Source: Microthrixaceae bacterium
GTDB lineage: Bacteria; Actinomycetota; Acidimicrobiia; Acidimicrobiales; Microtrichaceae
NCBI GenBank assembly: GCA_020439285.1
Contig: JAGQSZ010000005.1
Coordinates: 1-38,511 of the forward strand
Direction of reading: 5' to 3'
Length of the DNA stretch: 38,511 nt
Part shown: positions 27,160 through 35,156 of the stretch, piece after piece
Position numbering within the stretch: the first letter of the stretch is position 1
Layout: each line of letters opens with the position of its first letter
The notes under the pieces: model-generated
What the model was told of the DNA's origin: nothing
What the model saw: only the letters and a program-made list of their open reading frames with translations
Databases searched by the model: none
Position numbers and translations under genes: made by a program

Positions 27160-27780
27160 TTAGAGGTTCTCGCCGGTCTCGATGTCGAGAAGTTCCTGGG
27201 CTGATTGTCTGACCTGAAGGTCTCTGTCTGAGGTCATCGATCGCAGCATGTCCGTTACTTCGGATCCATCGAATGCTGCGAGGGCGAGCACGGCCCGTCT
27301 GCGCACTGCCGCCTTGTCTCCACAAGCATGCACGACTGCGGGGAGTCCTGTCGGGTGGCCGATTGATCCCAGAGCGGCCGTTGCAGATTCTCTGCATAGC
27401 GAGTCGTTGTGCTCGGTCGCAACTACGCACAGAGCTTCGACCGCTTCGAGCGGAGCATCTACGCATTCGCCAAGGGCGAAAGCTGCGACTTCTACGACGG
27501 TGTCCTCGGGATCAGTCAACAGCGATAGGAGCGCAGGGAAGTACTCGGTTCGGGTCGCGGCAACCTTCAGTGCTCTTATGCGGACACTGGCAGCCTCATC
27601 AGAGAAAGCTCGTTCAAGAATCTCTTGGTTCAGATAGCCCGTGCGTTCGAGTGCCCCGAGCGCAACGCAGCGGATCTCGGGCTCGGAATGAGCCATCGCA
27701 TCAAGCACAGTTGTGTAGTCACCGCGGTGTCCCGCTGTCACTACAGCTCTGCGCAGATTGGCGATTGAAACCTGATTCAA
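27160..27780 (-). CDS. HEAT-repeat protein with TTG start
   Basis: This 206-residue helical-repeat protein has repeated ~31-residue units, each with a pattern like V-x-x-x-A-x-x-ALG: EIRCVALGALERTG, ASVRIRALKVAAT, TVVEVAAFALGEC, LCRESATAALGSIG, AVRRRAVLALAAF and LQVRQSAQELLDI. About six repeats form a curved scaffold likely used for protein contacts. There is no signal peptide or catalytic motif. No ATG or GTG suits the N-terminus; TTG 27780 follows AGAGGA at 8 nt and gives a complete repeat array. Its partner is unknown and it appears monocistronic. Confidence 0.78.
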   Translation of the reverse strand: MNQVSIANLRRAVVTAGHRGDYTTVLDAMAHSEPEIRCVALGALERTGYLNQEILERAFSDEAASVRIRALKVAATRTEYFPALLSLLTDPEDTVVEVAAFALGECVDAPLEAVEALCVVATEHNDSLCRESATAALGSIGHPTGLPAVVHACGDKAAVRRRAVLALAAFDGSEVTDMLRSMTSDRDLQVRQSAQELLDIETGENL

Positions 27781-27860: not shown

Positions 27861-28322
27861 GTGTCGCATCACATGGTTATCTTCGAGAATCGAGACGGTC
27901 ATCCTGGTTACAACCAGTTCGATTCGGTCGAGTCCGCAGTCAGCTTCGTTGAAGACCTGCGAAACAATCAGGGGATTGACAAGTTCCAGATCTTCGAACT
28001 CAAAGAAGTGAAGTTCGAACTCAAGACCTATTACAGGGTTCAACTGCAAGCACTGAACCCCGGCGCACCGTCCAAGCCGGCAGCAGGTCAGCAAGCCCCG
28101 GCAGCACAGCCAGCCGCCGCTGCTCAACCTGCCCCAAAGCCTGCGGCTGAGACGGCTGCTCCCGCTCCTGCAGCGCCTCCTCAGGCCGCTCCACCCAAAG
28201 CTGAACCGACCCCGGCCGCCGCTGCGCCGACGCCACAGAGTGGCGCTGCAGCCCCGGTTCCCCCAGCCGACCAGCCAAGCGAAGATGATCAGCCGGCTAG
28301 GCGAGGTCTGTTCGGCCGCTGA
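27861..28322 (+). CDS. Hypothetical protein with Ala/Pro-rich tail
   Basis: I do not recognise this 153-residue protein. The first ~70 residues look like a small folded domain (HHMVIFENRDGHPGYNQFDSVESAVSFVEDLRNNQG then DKFQIFELKEVKFELKTYYRVQL), possibly alternating strands and helices. Residues ~72-135 are low-complexity Ala/Pro/Gln. The end DDQPARRGLFGR is a short basic-aromatic tag, a form often seen at the end of disordered tails. GTG 27861 follows a purine-rich AAGAAGGGGG sequence; ATG 27873 is possible. It is a single gene closed by a clear terminator. A role in protein contacts through the tail is inference. Confidence 0.72.
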   Translation: MSHHMVIFENRDGHPGYNQFDSVESAVSFVEDLRNNQGIDKFQIFELKEVKFELKTYYRVQLQALNPGAPSKPAAGQQAPAAQPAAAAQPAPKPAAETAAPAPAAPPQAAPPKAEPTPAAAAPTPQSGAAAPVPPADQPSEDDQPARRGLFGR

Positions 28323-28427: not shown

Positions 28428-28727
28428 TCAGGCGAATAGAGCGACCGCTAGCACCAACACTGCACTGATAACGGCGCCGATGCATGCAGCGACGCTCAAC
28501 ACGATGGCCAACAGGATCACGGTGGAGCGAATCCTTCGGCCAAGCCCTACGCGTACATCGGACGACGCCTCGAAACGTGACGGGACCGGCGATGATTCCT
28601 GAGCCCGTTGGAGGGGGCGACTGTCAACAGCAACGCTTTGTCGGGCAGGATCTAACCGGAACAGGGTCAGCCAAGTGCCAGCGGCGCCAGCTGTTACAAC
28701 GAGTAGTCCGATTAATAGAGCAGTCAT
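28428..28727 (-). CDS. Small two-helix membrane protein
   Basis: This unrecognised 99-residue protein has a first membrane helix at residues ~2-24 (ALLIGLLVVTAGAAGTWLTLF), a polar loop (~25-68, Arg/Ser-rich), and a second helix near the C-terminus (STVILLAIVLSVAACIGAVISAVLVLAVALF). The loop carries PLQRAQESSPVPSRFEASSDVRVGLGRR. The ATG 28727 and the ATG of the divergent Lon-like gene share the palindrome CATG. The frame continues to 28793, which would overlap that gene more. It is convergent with the terminator-closed gene to its left. No function can be assigned. Confidence 0.55.
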   Translation of the reverse strand: MTALLIGLLVVTAGAAGTWLTLFRLDPARQSVAVDSRPLQRAQESSPVPSRFEASSDVRVGLGRRIRSTVILLAIVLSVAACIGAVISAVLVLAVALFA

Positions 28728-29895
28728 GACCGAGCACAGCGTACCCATCAATGAGCCTGATCTGGAGACAGAGGTTGATTCCCCTGTGGACACCGATCAA
28801 CCAGAACCTCAGCCACAGAGTCGAGCCCGTCGACGCAGGTTGTGGTGGTCGGCCGCCGGTGGGCTCGTGGTTGGCGCGGCGATCATTGCTGCGCTGTTCC
28901 TGATTCAGCTTCCCTACTTTGTCATTCAACCTGGGTCGGTAACGCCCGCGGAGCAACGGGTCGAGATCGAGGGGGCCAGGAGTTTCGACACAGATGGCAG
29001 GGTCTTGTTCGTCACGGTGTTCATAAACCGTGCGACACCCGCGTTGATGATCAGGTCCTGGCTCGATGACTCTGTCGAGGTTCGGAGCAAAGAGGAGATG
29101 TATCCCGAGGGCGACGAAGACGAGTCCCGACGCGAGAACGTGGTTCTCATGGACACCTCCAAGATCGTTGCTGAGAAGGTGGCCCTCACGTATCTCGGAT
29201 TGCCCGCAGAGTTTTCCGGTGAGGGCGCGCTGGTCGCGGGATTGGTCAAATCGAGTCCATCAAAAGGAGTGCTCGAAGCCGGCGACGTGCTCGTCGAGGT
29301 AGATGACGATCCAGTCAAGATGCCAGATGATATTGGACCTGCTCTTGAGGACCGCAGACCGGGCGACACGGTTGGTCTGGTTGTGGAACGAAGGTCTGAA
29401 AACGCCGCTGCATCAGGATCGTCAGCTCAAGCGAAGCCAAAGCGTCGGCGCCTGGAGTTGGCATTGGGAGCAGACCCCAAGGATCCCGATCGTCCAGTTC
29501 TGGGTATATACGTCGAGCCCTATGCACTGTCAGTGAATTCCGACATCAAAGTGGCTGTTGACTCTGGTGACGTGACTGGTCCTTCCGCAGGTTTGGCGTG
29601 GACCCTAGCGATTATTGATCGTCTGACCCCTGAGTCCCTCACTGATGGCAAGCGGGTGGCCGTTACGGGCGAGATTCATGCCGATGGCAGCGTTGGAGCC
29701 GTCGGCGGCACGCCTCAGAAGGTCGCAGCGGTCAAGCGGGCGGGAATCAAAGTGTTTCTGTATCCCAAAGCGACACCCGACGCCGACAAGCGCGCGATCG
29801 AGCGAATCGCAGGCGACGACATGAAGACCTATGCGGTCGGAACCGTCGATGAGGCTGTGAAGGTGCTCGCTCCTGATGGAGTACACAGGCCCTGA
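28726..29895 (+). CDS. Membrane-anchored PDZ/Lon-like (S16) protease, YlbL type
   Basis: This 389-residue protein has an acidic cytoplasmic N-terminus (1-33), one membrane helix (~41-63), and an extracytoplasmic region beginning YFVIQPGSVTPAEQRVEI. A PDZ domain lies at ~150-220 (LVAGLVKSSPSKGVLEAGDVLVEVDDDPV). The C-terminal Lon-type catalytic domain has Ser287 in TGPSAGLAWTLAIID and Lys332 in GGTPQKVAAVK. The Ser-Lys dyad is complete, with 44 residues between as in Lon. YlbL-like proteins are widespread in Firmicutes and Actinobacteria and act at the membrane. ATG 28726 is chosen; ATG-like starts further upstream overlap the divergent gene. The DivIVA-like gene follows after 65 bases. Confidence 0.92.
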   Translation: MTEHSVPINEPDLETEVDSPVDTDQPEPQPQSRARRRRLWWSAAGGLVVGAAIIAALFLIQLPYFVIQPGSVTPAEQRVEIEGARSFDTDGRVLFVTVFINRATPALMIRSWLDDSVEVRSKEEMYPEGDEDESRRENVVLMDTSKIVAEKVALTYLGLPAEFSGEGALVAGLVKSSPSKGVLEAGDVLVEVDDDPVKMPDDIGPALEDRRPGDTVGLVVERRSENAAASGSSAQAKPKRRRLELALGADPKDPDRPVLGIYVEPYALSVNSDIKVAVDSGDVTGPSAGLAWTLAIIDRLTPESLTDGKRVAVTGEIHADGSVGAVGGTPQKVAAVKRAGIKVFLYPKATPDADKRAIERIAGDDMKTYAVGTVDEAVKVLAPDGVHRP

Positions 29896-29960: not shown

Positions 29961-32105
29961 ATGGTCGACTCGCTTCCTGAACCGCCAGATCTCGATCCAG
30001 CTTCTTTGGCCAGCGGGAACTTCACCCGGTCGCGCAGGGGATTTGAACCGATTGAGGTCAATCAATCTTTGGGCAAGGCTGCTGATGCATTGCGGACATG
30101 GAGTTTGCGCGACAAGGCGTTGGTGCATCGCATAGAAGAACTCGAAGCAGAACTGATCGAAGCCAGAAAGCTCGACGAGGGCAGAATCGCATCAGTCCTT
30201 GGTGAGGAGACCGCTCGAGTCATAAGCGCGGCAAGGGAGGCAGCAGCCGAGATCCGCTCCAAGGCCGAGGAGCATGCAGCGCGGGTGATAAGGGAGTCGG
30301 AAGACACCGCCACGGCGAGTGCGAACGCTCTCAAAGCTGAGGCTGAGACGCTGCGTGCCGAGGCGGAATCGCTCCACGAGCAAGCGACTCGCGAATACGC
30401 AACGAAGCTCGACGAAGCCCAGCAGCTCCATGACGACCTGGTGAACGACGCCCAGCAACGTCATGATGAACTAGTTGAGGCTGGGGCGCGTGTCCTGAGC
30501 GAACGCACGACCGAAGCCGAAGAACATGCCCAGAAGGTCACAGAGCAGGCCAGGGTCGAGGGCCGTGACATGGTCGCTGAGGCCAAGGCCGTCCGCGATC
30601 GCATCTTGGCCGATCTGGCTGAACGTAGACGTGCTGCCAGGCGTCAGATAGAGGGAGCCATTGTCGGACGTGATCGTGTCATAGAGGTCATGCGACAAGC
30701 TGGCGCGAATTTGGAATCGGTCATAGCTGACCTCGGTGAGGCCGAGGATGCTGCAAGGGATTCTGTGAGTGACGCCGTATTGTCGCTGACTGATGACTCC
30801 GAGGAGTTCCTCTCTGGTTTGGATCTGACCGAACCCAGTATTGAAACCGGCGACCTTCTGGCTGTTCCGGTTGCTTCCAAGTCGACCGACGAGCCTGACT
30901 CTGACTCCGATGCTGGCCACAGCGGCAACGTCGACGATGAGGCGGTATCAACTGAGCTTGAATCGATCGATGTTCAGGTGGCGAATGCCGACGAGGCTGA
31001 TGAGAGCGCAGATGATGGAGATGCCGTTGACGTTGCTGTGGCTGCAGTAGCAGAGGAAGCGGCCCCAGACGCGGTCACCAAAGACGAGCCCGAGGCGATT
31101 GAAGCTCAAGTTGCTGACAGCGAACCAGCCGAGGCGGAGCCTGCAGCAGCTGACGAAGCGAGTGCCCCCGATGTGTCCGCTACGAGTGGCGATGATGGAT
31201 CTGGAGCCACAGTCCATGATCTGTTCGCGAAGATCCGGGCGCAGGGATTAGATGACACTGGGGAGTCTGATGAAATCGATGACGATGAGCTCGACGATAC
31301 GGATCAGGAACTCGCTGGTAGTGAGGCCCAGGTCATTGATCTGAGCGAAAACGTCGATGATGTCGATGGTGAGGAGGAAGATCCCGAGATCGCTGCTGAA
31401 CTCGACGAGATGTCTCAGGTTGCCCTGTTGCTCGACTCCCGGGATGACCTGTTGGTTCCGGTTGAACGACAGATGCTGCGTTCACTGCGACGGCTGGCTT
31501 CAGATGAACAAAACGAGGTGCTCGACCAGCTTCGACGCCATAAGCGGGGCCGCCCAGAGATAGACGTGGTGGTGCCTTCGAGCGAGACGATGCTAGAGAA
31601 CTTCAGCTCCGGAGTACTCGATGATTTCTCGGCTGCGATCGAAGCTGGCTACACCTTCTGGGGCAAGGTGGGAGGTGCCTCTGCATCTCCGCTCTTCGAG
31701 TCCCCATCAGACGCCAAGAGTCGACTCGACGGTATCCTCAGCGAGTTCATCGCCGTGCACCGCGCTCATCTGGAGAGAGCGATGGACCAAGCAGATGAGT
31801 CCGGGGTCGATATCGAGGATCTCACTCAGAGCATCAAGGCCGTTTACCGCGACTGGCGTCAAAGCGCTCTGTCAGCGATCGCGAGTGATTTGACGATCGC
31901 CGGGTTCTCCCACGGGGAGCGAACCGCTGCAGGGCCTGGAGCTCCATGGCGATGGGTGGTCGACAACGGCGGCCTTCCGTGCGCAGATGGTGAGGACAAC
32001 GCCCTTGCAGGAGCGGTTCTCAGCGATGAGGCTTTCCCGACCGGGGACTTCGCACCACCGGCACATTCAGGTTGCCGATGCATTCTTGTTCCCGCATATA
32101 ACTAG
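29961..32105 (+). CDS. DivIVA-like coiled-coil protein fused to a MuF/gp7-like C-terminal domain
   Basis: This 714-residue protein is built of distinct parts. Residues ~20-50 (GNFTRSRRGFEPIEVNQSLGKA) look like a DivIVA-type N-terminal motif. Residues ~50-260 are a long Glu/Ala/Arg-rich coiled coil. Residues ~275-490 are very acidic low-complexity sequence. Residues ~490-660 are helical and less biased. The end (660-714) carries W-x-W-x-x-D, Cys674, a G-x-V-x-x-D segment and PPAHSGCRC with His702, Cys705 and Cys707, ending ILVP. This closely follows the terminal W..D..C....G......P.H..CRC pattern of phage Mu gpF/SPP1 gp7 minor head proteins. No other phage gene is present. The function is unknown; polar scaffold and cell-envelope roles are inferences from the coiled-coil part. 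Confidence 0.8.
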   Translation: MVDSLPEPPDLDPASLASGNFTRSRRGFEPIEVNQSLGKAADALRTWSLRDKALVHRIEELEAELIEARKLDEGRIASVLGEETARVISAAREAAAEIRSKAEEHAARVIRESEDTATASANALKAEAETLRAEAESLHEQATREYATKLDEAQQLHDDLVNDAQQRHDELVEAGARVLSERTTEAEEHAQKVTEQARVEGRDMVAEAKAVRDRILADLAERRRAARRQIEGAIVGRDRVIEVMRQAGANLESVIADLGEAEDAARDSVSDAVLSLTDDSEEFLSGLDLTEPSIETGDLLAVPVASKSTDEPDSDSDAGHSGNVDDEAVSTELESIDVQVANADEADESADDGDAVDVAVAAVAEEAAPDAVTKDEPEAIEAQVADSEPAEAEPAAADEASAPDVSATSGDDGSGATVHDLFAKIRAQGLDDTGESDEIDDDELDDTDQELAGSEAQVIDLSENVDDVDGEEEDPEIAAELDEMSQVALLLDSRDDLLVPVERQMLRSLRRLASDEQNEVLDQLRRHKRGRPEIDVVVPSSETMLENFSSGVLDDFSAAIEAGYTFWGKVGGASASPLFESPSDAKSRLDGILSEFIAVHRAHLERAMDQADESGVDIEDLTQSIKAVYRDWRQSALSAIASDLTIAGFSHGERTAAGPGAPWRWVVDNGGLPCADGEDNALAGAVLSDEAFPTGDFAPPAHSGCRCILVPAYN

Positions 32106-32114: not shown

Positions 32115-35100
32115 GTGCGAGTACCTCAGGACATGCCGAGCGCGCCCCGACGCAGATTCCTACGAGGTAGGCCATCGCTTGGAACAGGTAATACCAGAAG
32201 GATCATCCTTGCTCTAGGAGCGCTGGTTCTCATTGGGCTGGCACTGTCTATGCGGTCCATTGCCACCTTCTGGACCGACTATCTCTGGTTCGAGAACCTT
32301 GAACTCGGGTCTGTCTGGCGCGGCCTGTTGATGTCCAAGGTCGCGATCGTGTTGTTGACCGGAGCGACCCTTTTCATTCTCGTGTTCGTCAACTTGTTGA
32401 TCGCTGACAAGATCGCTCCACGATTCCCAGCAGGGTTCGCCTATGACGACGAGGTGCTGACTAGATATCGCGAGTTGATTAGCGGTCGTCGCAGACTCGT
32501 ATGGCTGGTGTTGTCAGCGGTCATCGCATCTGTACCGGCGATGAGCGCGGTGGCTCAGTGGCAGAACTGGGTTCTGTTCTGGAACAGCGGCGACTTCGGC
32601 GTCAAGGACCAGCATTTTGGCAGGGACATCGGGTTCTTCATTTTCCGGTTGCCGATGTTGAGCGCCGCGGTCGACTGGCTCATCGGGTTCTTGTTGCTGA
32701 CGATCCTCATCGTCACGATCGTTCACTACCTGAACGGAGCGATCAGGCTCGGGGTGCCCAGCCAGCGAGTTTCGGTCAACGCGAAGGCACATATTTCTGT
32801 TCTCCTTGCCCTAGCCGCATTCGCCAAGGGAGCGGACTATTACTTGGAACGGTCACGGCTCGTGTTGTCCAAGGGCGGCGGGATTGATGGAGCCGGCTAC
32901 ACCGACATTCACGCGTCACTCCCAGCGATTCAGTTGATGATTCTCATTTCTGTTTTTGCGGGTCTGGTGCTCCTGGTCAACATTCGTCGTCAAGGCTGGT
33001 CGATCCCCGCGATCACGGTTGGTCTCTGGGCGCTGCTAGCGGTCGTAACAGGTGGCATCTATCCGGCGTTCGTGCAGCAGTTCAGCGTTTCACCAGCAGA
33101 ACTGTCCAAGGAACGTCCATTCGTTCAGCGCAACATCACAGCGACCCGTCAAGCGCTCGGCCTGTCTGACGTGAAGAGCGTGCCCTTTGCCTACAAACCA
33201 GGCCTGTCCGACGAGAACCTGACCAAGGGGCAAGAGAACCTCGACAATGCCAGACTCTTGGACCCCACTGTGGTCAAACCCACGATTCAGGATCTCCAAG
33301 TCGCCCGTGAGTACTACAGGTTCACGGACGTGGATGTAGACAGATACCAAGTCGATGGTGAACGTACCCCCGTCGTTGTATCGGCCAGAGAGTTGAATCT
33401 CACCGGTATAAGCCGACCGACTTGGGAGAAGACCCATTTGGTGTTTACCCACGGCTACGCGGCGGCAGTTGCACCGGCCAACAGCGTCAACAGCCGAGGG
33501 GAGCCGCGCTTCTTGGTTTCTGGCATTCCTTCCCAAGTGAACGAACTACCCAAACTCGACCGGCCAGAGATCTACGTCGGTGAATCGATGACCGGATACT
33601 CGATCGTTGGAACGAAGATGAAGGAACTCAGTTCCGATGATCTGACGACCACCTACGAGGGCACCGGCGGCGTCCGGTTGGGTTCGATGATCAAACGGGC
33701 AGCGTTCTCGTTGCGCTTTGGTGATATCGAACCCCTCATCTCGGGCAACATCACCGACGACTCACAAGTCATCTACGTTCGAGACGTAATTGAACGAGTG
33801 CAGAAGATCGCCCCGTTCCTGAAGCCTGACCCGGATCCGTATCCTGTTCTCATTGACGGCCGCGTCAAGTACATCGTCGACCTGTACACGACCTCGGATT
33901 CATATCCATATGCCCAGTCAATGGATGCAGCAGATGTAGCCCCTGGAGTTTCGGGGTCTTTCAACTACATCCGCAACTCGGCCAAAGCCGTGGTGGATGC
34001 ATATGACGGAACTGTTGATCTGTATCTTGCCGACACCCTCGGCGGAGCTGAAGACCCGATCATTCGGGCCTATGCGAGAGCCTTCCCAGGTCTGTTCAAA
34101 GACCAGATTCCAAGTGAGTTGATTGCCCATTTCCGCTATCCGGAATTCCTGTTCAAGGTTCAGACCAAAGCATGGGGCAACTACCACCAGTCGGATCCAT
34201 CCACGTTCTTCAACAACAGTGACCGTTGGGTAGTGGCCCCACAACCCTCGAGCACGGGTGCAGGAACGGCCCAGACCGAGGATTCAGCGAACGCCGGTGG
34301 CGCATCATCGAGTTCAGCTGCTGATGCGATCGAGCCCTACTACCAAGAGCTCAAGATCGGCTCAGCGGGCGAATCGCAGTTCGTCCTGACGCGCCCGTTT
34401 GTTCTCAGTTCCGGTGATGGTGTGGGAAGAAACCTGACCTCGGTGATGATCGCAAGGATGGACCCTGAGCATTACGGCGAGCTCGAACAGATAACCATGG
34501 TCACTAAGCGCTCTGGCAGCACGGTTCGCAACAACTCTGTTGACGGCCCGGTCCAAGCCAACAGGAAGATGGCTACTTACGTTCCTGTCACGCAGTTCCA
34601 GACCCTTACGGGCCAGCAGGGATCCAGAATCCAGTACGGCAACATTCTCATCCTGCCTATGGGAGACGCTCTCATGTACATGCGCCCGATCTATGTGGCG
34701 CAGGAGGGTAGTTCTCGGTTCACGCTGCGCAAGATCGTCATGCTCTCGGGTGACTCCGTCGGATTCGGCGACACCATCGAATCGGCGCTCGCCGACCTTC
34801 GAGATGCCAATCCTGACGGAGCGGTCAACCCCGACGAGCAGCCCGAAGCTGAGGAAGAACCCGGGTCGGGTGAGACGGACACCGAGTCTCCCTCGGCGAC
34901 CGTTCCTGAGGACCAAACAGGTCCGTCAACGGGGAGCGTCGAGGACCTGCTTACCCGAGCGGATGCGAAGTTCAGCGCAGCGGATCGAGCTCTCGCAGCA
35001 TCTGACCTCACAGGGTATGCAAAGCTCATAGATGAGGCCCGTGAGTTGATGGATTCGGCTCGTGCAGCGCTCTCTTCGAACACTGGATCGACAACGACCA

Positions 35101-35156
35101 CGACTTCTCCGTCAGCGGGTGGCTCGACTTCGACGACCGCCAAACCCGGTGGATGA
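32115..35156 (+). CDS. UPF0182 family large membrane protein
   Basis: This 1013-residue protein belongs to UPF0182 (COG1615), widespread in Actinobacteria and cyanobacteria, with unknown function. After a basic N-terminus (1-28) it has about seven helices within residues ~29-340. Characteristic segments are ATFWTDYLWFENLELGSVW, WQNWVLFWNSGDFGVKDQHFGRDIGFFIFRLP and SVNAKAHISVLLALAAFAKGADYYLER. The large extracytoplasmic part follows, with VSPAELSKERPFVQRNITATRQALGL and FRYPEFLFKVQTKAWGNYH-x(8)-FFNNSDRW. The last ~130 residues are acidic, then a helical hairpin (~945-985), then a Ser/Thr/Gly-rich tail. GTG 32115 is supported by TAGATT at six bases. It lies next to the DivIVA/MuF-like gene; any functional link is inference. 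Confidence 0.92.
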   Translation: MRVPQDMPSAPRRRFLRGRPSLGTGNTRRIILALGALVLIGLALSMRSIATFWTDYLWFENLELGSVWRGLLMSKVAIVLLTGATLFILVFVNLLIADKIAPRFPAGFAYDDEVLTRYRELISGRRRLVWLVLSAVIASVPAMSAVAQWQNWVLFWNSGDFGVKDQHFGRDIGFFIFRLPMLSAAVDWLIGFLLLTILIVTIVHYLNGAIRLGVPSQRVSVNAKAHISVLLALAAFAKGADYYLERSRLVLSKGGGIDGAGYTDIHASLPAIQLMILISVFAGLVLLVNIRRQGWSIPAITVGLWALLAVVTGGIYPAFVQQFSVSPAELSKERPFVQRNITATRQALGLSDVKSVPFAYKPGLSDENLTKGQENLDNARLLDPTVVKPTIQDLQVAREYYRFTDVDVDRYQVDGERTPVVVSARELNLTGISRPTWEKTHLVFTHGYAAAVAPANSVNSRGEPRFLVSGIPSQVNELPKLDRPEIYVGESMTGYSIVGTKMKELSSDDLTTTYEGTGGVRLGSMIKRAAFSLRFGDIEPLISGNITDDSQVIYVRDVIERVQKIAPFLKPDPDPYPVLIDGRVKYIVDLYTTSDSYPYAQSMDAADVAPGVSGSFNYIRNSAKAVVDAYDGTVDLYLADTLGGAEDPIIRAYARAFPGLFKDQIPSELIAHFRYPEFLFKVQTKAWGNYHQSDPSTFFNNSDRWVVAPQPSSTGAGTAQTEDSANAGGASSSSAADAIEPYYQELKIGSAGESQFVLTRPFVLSSGDGVGRNLTSVMIARMDPEHYGELEQITMVTKRSGSTVRNNSVDGPVQANRKMATYVPVTQFQTLTGQQGSRIQYGNILILPMGDALMYMRPIYVAQEGSSRFTLRKIVMLSGDSVGFGDTIESALADLRDANPDGAVNPDEQPEAEEEPGSGETDTESPSATVPEDQTGPSTGSVEDLLTRADAKFSAADRALAASDLTGYAKLIDEARELMDSARAALSSNTGSTTTTTSPSAGGSTSTTAKPGG

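Follow-up and report, generated by a model that had tools for sequence, protein, structure and literature searches.

What is a phage head domain doing at the end of a DivIVA-type protein, in a stretch of DNA that otherwise looks bacterial? The question is raised by a 714-residue protein encoded on contig JAGQSZ010000005.1 of a Microthrixaceae bacterium, of which 38,511 nucleotides were analysed (the window). From the letters alone, an initial annotation had proposed a DivIVA-type N-terminus, a coiled coil, an acidic low-complexity region and a C-terminus resembling the minor head proteins Mu gpF and SPP1 gp7, and had suggested that a phage domain was domesticated here. The open frame of the fusion gene comprises 717 codons, so there is no appreciably longer reading of it. 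The parts of the gene and its two close neighbours are collected in Table 1.

Table 1. Positions of the fusion gene, its parts and the flanking genes in the window.
Feature	Position	Strand	Basis
Lon-like membrane protease; one hydrophobic segment, PDZ and Lon_C, GPSAG with Ser304	28675..29895	+	Pfam; conserved upstream
DivIVA-MuF fusion gene; 714 aa, ATG start	29961..32105	+	ORF; Pfam and PHROG matches
DivIVA domain and start of coiled coil; residues 16-141	30006..30383	+	Pfam PF05103; solved DivIVA/Wag31 structures
Helical/coiled-coil stretch; residues 61-290	30141..30830	+	Homology and DivIVA match; weak heptad count
Acidic low-complexity linker; residues 291-485	30831..31415	+	Composition
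C-terminal portal/MuF-type domain; residues 486-714	31416..32102	+	Profiles, sequence, fold
Near-invariant DEQNEVLD motif; residues 515-522, first long helix of the MuF domain	31503..31526	+	Alignment of homologues
Knob W..D..C...PTG..PPAH..CRC; putative metal site Cys674/His702/Cys705/Cys707	31947..32081	+	Alignment
UPF0182 membrane protein; seven hydrophobic segments in first 315 residues, starts 9 nt past the fusion gene	32115..35156	+	Pfam; conserved downstream

The DivIVA-type N-terminus proved genuine. It scored 32.1 bits against Pfam PF05103, above the cut-off of 28 bits, and the N-terminal profile matched the solved N-domains of DivIVA (2wuj, E = 1.1e-9) and Wag31 (6lfa, E = 6.7e-7); Pfam DivIVA was likewise matched by all 32 homologous N-termini scanned. 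Domains of this kind bind the inner face of the membrane and oligomerise. The canonical DivIVA of the same genome lies on a separate contig (517, locus L106) in an open frame of 511 codons, surrounded by frames that we identified by eye as the FtsZ C-terminus, SepF, a DksA/TraR-like protein and LspA. The fusion protein is a second DivIVA-domain protein besides this one, and it differs from the canonical paralogue in lying outside the ftsZ-sepF cluster, in its phage-type C-terminus and in its UPF0182 neighbour. A helical stretch is common to both proteins, and the L106 protein, next to SepF and the FtsZ C-terminus, likewise carries a long acidic tail. In the fusion protein the acidic region of ~200 residues is present as annotated, with 34% D/E, 2% K/R and a net charge of -62. 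The proposed coiled coil of ~200 residues stood in part: the DivIVA match and homology argue for it, whereas our own heptad count gave a weak signal (0.45 versus a background of 0.41).

At the other end of the protein, the expected terminal pattern is present as W665..D668.....C674...FPTGDFAPPAH702SGC705RC707, and the domain matched C-terminal positions 585-709 of the 717 in PHROG 2662, 'portal protein', with an E-value of 3.3e-9. The same profile was matched by 48 of the 52 homologues (best E = 8e-16) and by all 11 homologues from elsewhere in the phylum (best E = 1.1e-17); in one of these alignments, that of homologue L090, the match covers residues 33-232 and includes the conserved QN helix equivalent to DEQNEVLD. 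Against Pfam Phage_Mu_F (PF04233) the window domain scored 13.9 bits, under the cut-off of 29.6, and against NCBIfam TIGR01641 (SPP1 gp7) 12.5 bits, under the cut-off of 39.65, so that standard annotation overlooks the domain; the curated cut-off is also why a PF04233 search of its own genome came back empty. TIGR01641 was nevertheless seen in 36 and Phage_Mu_F in 20 of the 52 homologues. Among 50,697 phage records, the C-terminus of the portal of Brevundimonas phage Strzyga aligned with the domain (34% over 104 residues, E = 2e-3). The family profile scored this portal at 1.9e-13, and hhalign, applied to the Strzyga portal alone, returned a probability of 97.4%. Viral contigs contained clear relatives ending in PPAHPGCRC, and Mu gpF lay beyond the reach of the family profile.

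The predicted fold agrees with the profiles. An AlphaFold model of residues 486-714, with the 52 homologues as input, had a mean pLDDT of 92, with long helices that lead into a small strand/loop knob. Searched with Foldseek against a viral structure library, it gave 110 matches at E ≤ 1e-3, of which those with names were almost all portal, minor capsid or head morphogenesis proteins, and the TM-score reached 0.79 of the query among the matches listed. A second model, built separately from distant homologues, gave viral structure matches of the same kind. In the PDB, phmmer found nothing for the domain, the alignment profile gave weak unrelated matches only, and structure searches (Foldseek, VIA-align) returned generic helical bundles only among the matches listed; this absence says nothing against a MuF fold. 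At the level of sequence and predicted structure, the C-terminal ~230 residues are homologous to the portal-fused MuF domain of tailed phages, with which they share the fold class and the same terminal knob, W..D..C..(C)..P.H..CRC. The host version differs from the phage portal-MuF and gp7 proteins in being fused to DivIVA instead of a portal, in having no portal or terminase neighbours, in being a core host gene, and in falling under the Pfam and NCBIfam cut-offs. The sub-threshold Pfam and NCBIfam scores, together with the unreached Mu gpF, are what one could cite for a coiled-coil protein whose resemblance to MuF at one end is due to chance; with PHROG 2662 recurring across both sets of homologues and viral folds retrieved from two separate models, we give this hardly any credence. 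The initial annotation would have fallen had the C-terminus lacked any profile or structural match to MuF, or had all homologues proved to be coiled coils with unrelated ends. Neither was the case.

The surroundings of the gene are those of a bacterial chromosome. As annotated, the protein encoded upstream carries Lon_C and PDZ domains and the one downstream is UPF0182, and no portal, terminase, capsid or integrase was found among 16 other window proteins scanned against Pfam. This lack of phage neighbours among the proteins scanned, and a context kept across the class, speak against a prophage or prophage remnant. In 96 of 97 testable loci the next gene downstream is UPF0182, mostly after a short gap and in many cases after ~10 nt; in the single exception, an aldolase-like gene lies between the two. 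On the other side, Acidimicrobiia usually have Lon-PDZ as the adjacent gene, which in other classes lies a few kb off. In the phylum sample, all 58 genomes with the fusion gene also have UPF0182, 202 have UPF0182 alone and 136 have neither (Fisher p = 2e-12, treating genomes as independent despite their relatedness). The fusion gene and UPF0182 form a tight cluster of genes that run in the same direction, to which the Lon-PDZ membrane protease usually belongs as well. Further upstream of Lon-PDZ, a HEAT-repeat gene (27160-27780, minus strand) and a small gene without a Pfam match (27861-28322, plus strand) recur in many Acidimicrobiia loci. Promoter, terminator and Rfam scans gave nothing usable. 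Other actinobacteria have Lon-PDZ next to UPF0182 as a pair, as in Rv3194c-Rv3193c; both genes of that pair are present here, and Acidimicrobiia place the DivIVA-MuF gene between them. In two loci without the fusion gene (L172, L175), the Lon-PDZ gene directly precedes UPF0182.

This context bears on the suggestion that the protein delivers a toxin, or more broadly that it is an anti-phage decoy or prophage-derived toxin carrier whose MuF end would disturb phage portals or carry an effector. Polymorphic toxins do occur among the MuF proteins of temperate phages; in them MuF is likewise part of a multidomain protein and the toxin comes after MuF (PMC5576092). The fusion protein, in contrast, has neither a recognisable toxin family nor a prophage around it, its MuF domain reaches the C-terminus, and no phage genes, portal and terminase included, lie among the scanned neighbours. 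The delivery idea was thus not borne out, and a fixed housekeeping context under purifying selection (see below), rather than the turnover of conflict genes, makes a decoy or carrier highly improbable.

The fusion gene is widespread in its class. It occurs once per genome in 50 of 61 relatives and is found in 197 of 249 Acidimicrobiia genomes sampled at 95% completeness, two of them with two matches. Outside the class it is sparse. The Actinomycetota sample contained it in 58 of 396 genomes, not counting G407, in which a glycosyltransferase-like frame had matched by chance. Diverged copies stand in place in two class members that gave no profile match (L144, L163), so these counts are lower bounds. 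When 84,980 species were scanned for the pattern, close relatives turned up in Actinomycetota only, except for one contig labelled 'Acidobacteria' that groups with Acidimicrobiales. Four cluster-carrying contigs labelled Bifidobacterium breve or Acidobacteria (L029, L033, L036, L045) are Acidimicrobiia-like and look mislabelled or misbinned. No plasmid among those searched carried the domain. The dN/dS of the MuF domain was 0.02-0.20 in 13 close pairs, with one more pair saturated, values that place the fusion gene under purifying selection.

A tree built from 52 cellular and 11 viral rows placed the cellular set apart from the viral one at 98/100. The tree is unrooted and its viral rows are few and picked by similarity; the split is compatible with a single capture. 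As the cellular and viral rows each occupy one side of a branch, the same tree would also fit a domain of cellular origin that was taken up by phages. However, MuF occurs in 35% of the tailed phages surveyed, from many hosts (PMC5576092), whereas close relatives of the host form are confined to Actinomycetota apart from the one contig named above, and we consider the reverse direction very unlikely. Profile and fold homology, a fixed non-phage context, near class-wide spread and purifying selection together lend good support to the earlier proposal that a phage portal/MuF module was domesticated on a DivIVA-type scaffold. As judged from these comparisons, the gene is an old host gene of Actinomycetota that joins such a scaffold to a phage portal/MuF-type domain.

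Its losses are modular, affecting the knob, the whole MuF domain, the DivIVA N-terminus or the entire gene. Two homologues (L086, L093) have no DivIVA motif; two loci upstream of UPF0182 (L170, L173) keep the DivIVA part with an undetectable MuF domain, and nine other loci inspected alongside them showed no trace of either the DivIVA part or MuF by profile. Three genomes (G041, G060, G570) have neither the fusion gene nor UPF0182, for which missing contigs could account.

The only cysteines of the fusion protein, Cys674, Cys705 and Cys707, all lie in the knob. Among recognisable tails, CxC is invariant, the histidine nearly so, and at least one of two upstream cysteines is always kept: the window's own family has the first only, and four homologues (L010, L011, L085, L117) have the second only. 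Such an either-or arrangement would be expected if the two cysteines were alternative ligands of a single metal, and the sequences are consistent with metal binding by Cys674, His702, Cys705 and Cys707, as had been suggested. Such conservation could also be taken to mean that the knob is a sensor of zinc or oxidation which controls whether the scaffold assembles. But phage MuF proteins have the same knob, for which a structural role is the simpler reading, and several lineages have lost it while keeping the rest, so that we regard a sensor as quite unlikely. The knob is deleted in four homologues (L047, L048, L108, L119) and decayed in family f70. The four are natural knob-only deletions that keep the helical part and UPF0182, and offer ready-made tests of what the knob does.

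The function of the whole can be approached from its two ends. DivIVA proteins of other actinobacteria recruit chromosome-segregation factors, and Mu gp30 is annotated as 'minor head protein and DNA pilot'; the MuF head might then bind DNA, with the DivIVA part tying the chromosome to the membrane or the poles. The title of Stiege et al. 2003, cited in PMC6316719, likewise describes SPP1 gp7 as DNA-binding. However, the domain is acidic, with a mean net charge of -5 over the last 130 residues and -12 over 235 residues, following the -62 linker, and the fixed partner gene encodes a membrane protein rather than a DNA-binding one, so that a DNA tether seems unlikely. We favor a docking role, and put the probability of the whole explanation, an old host DivIVA-MuF scaffold whose MuF head docks to UPF0182 at growth or division zones, at about one half. 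The DivIVA N-terminus would anchor and oligomerise the protein on the inner membrane face, with the acidic linker as its flexible tether. A putative Cys/His-bound metal would stabilise the MuF head, which would have lost its capsid role and become a docking module, the likeliest partner being the cytoplasmic side of UPF0182. In this way the scaffold may gather UPF0182, and possibly the Lon-PDZ protease as well, where the envelope grows or the cell divides. In SPP1, the MuF protein gp7 interacts strongly with the multimeric portal; assembly does not need it, and it helps infection to begin (PMC6316719). We infer a physical complex with UPF0182, of which a conserved neighbourhood alone is no proof, and the 202 genomes with UPF0182 alone count against the explanation, as UPF0182 can evidently do without the fusion gene. 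So do the lineages described above that have dropped the knob, the MuF domain, the DivIVA N-terminus or the gene as a whole.

An envelope role is hinted at by relatives of the neighbours as well as by the DivIVA part. We take Rv3193c to be the UPF0182 protein of M. tuberculosis, and the Lon-PDZ neighbour has the architecture of B. subtilis DdcP/YlbL. Rv3193c, with seven transmembrane segments comparable to the seven hydrophobic segments of the window's UPF0182, was underrepresented in the TnSeq of the divisome mutant rv0954 (PMC8093794), and the DdcP/YlbL protease degrades the division inhibitor YneA (PMC11790237). By analogy, these are no more than hints of a role in envelope growth or division. 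Tentatively, at odds somewhat short of even, the MuF module was captured once, early in Actinomycetota, to become the head of a scaffold organising UPF0182, and Lon-PDZ, DivIVA-MuF and UPF0182 would form an undescribed envelope growth or division module.

Both ends of the protein belong to known families; the literature searched contained no mention of their combination, of its core status in the host or of its link to UPF0182. Subscription papers and preprints lay outside that search, which yielded nothing on DivIVA with a minor head protein, on DivIVA in Acidimicrobiia or on COG1615, nothing on the function of UPF0182 by title or abstract, and nothing relevant by title on phage domestication with DivIVA. 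In a survey of bacterial muf genes, 96% lay in prophages or their remnants (PMC5576092). In contrast to such prophage-bound genes, the MuF domain described here is attached to a cytoskeletal scaffold and encoded by a core host gene of a large class of Actinomycetota. This suggests the reuse, in a membrane machine of bacteria, of a viral docking part acquired long ago from the capsid entrance of a tailed phage. For UPF0182, a membrane family that is widespread and of no known function, the fusion protein is a candidate partner, and the MuF domain, whose biochemical role is still obscure, becomes open to study outside any capsid.
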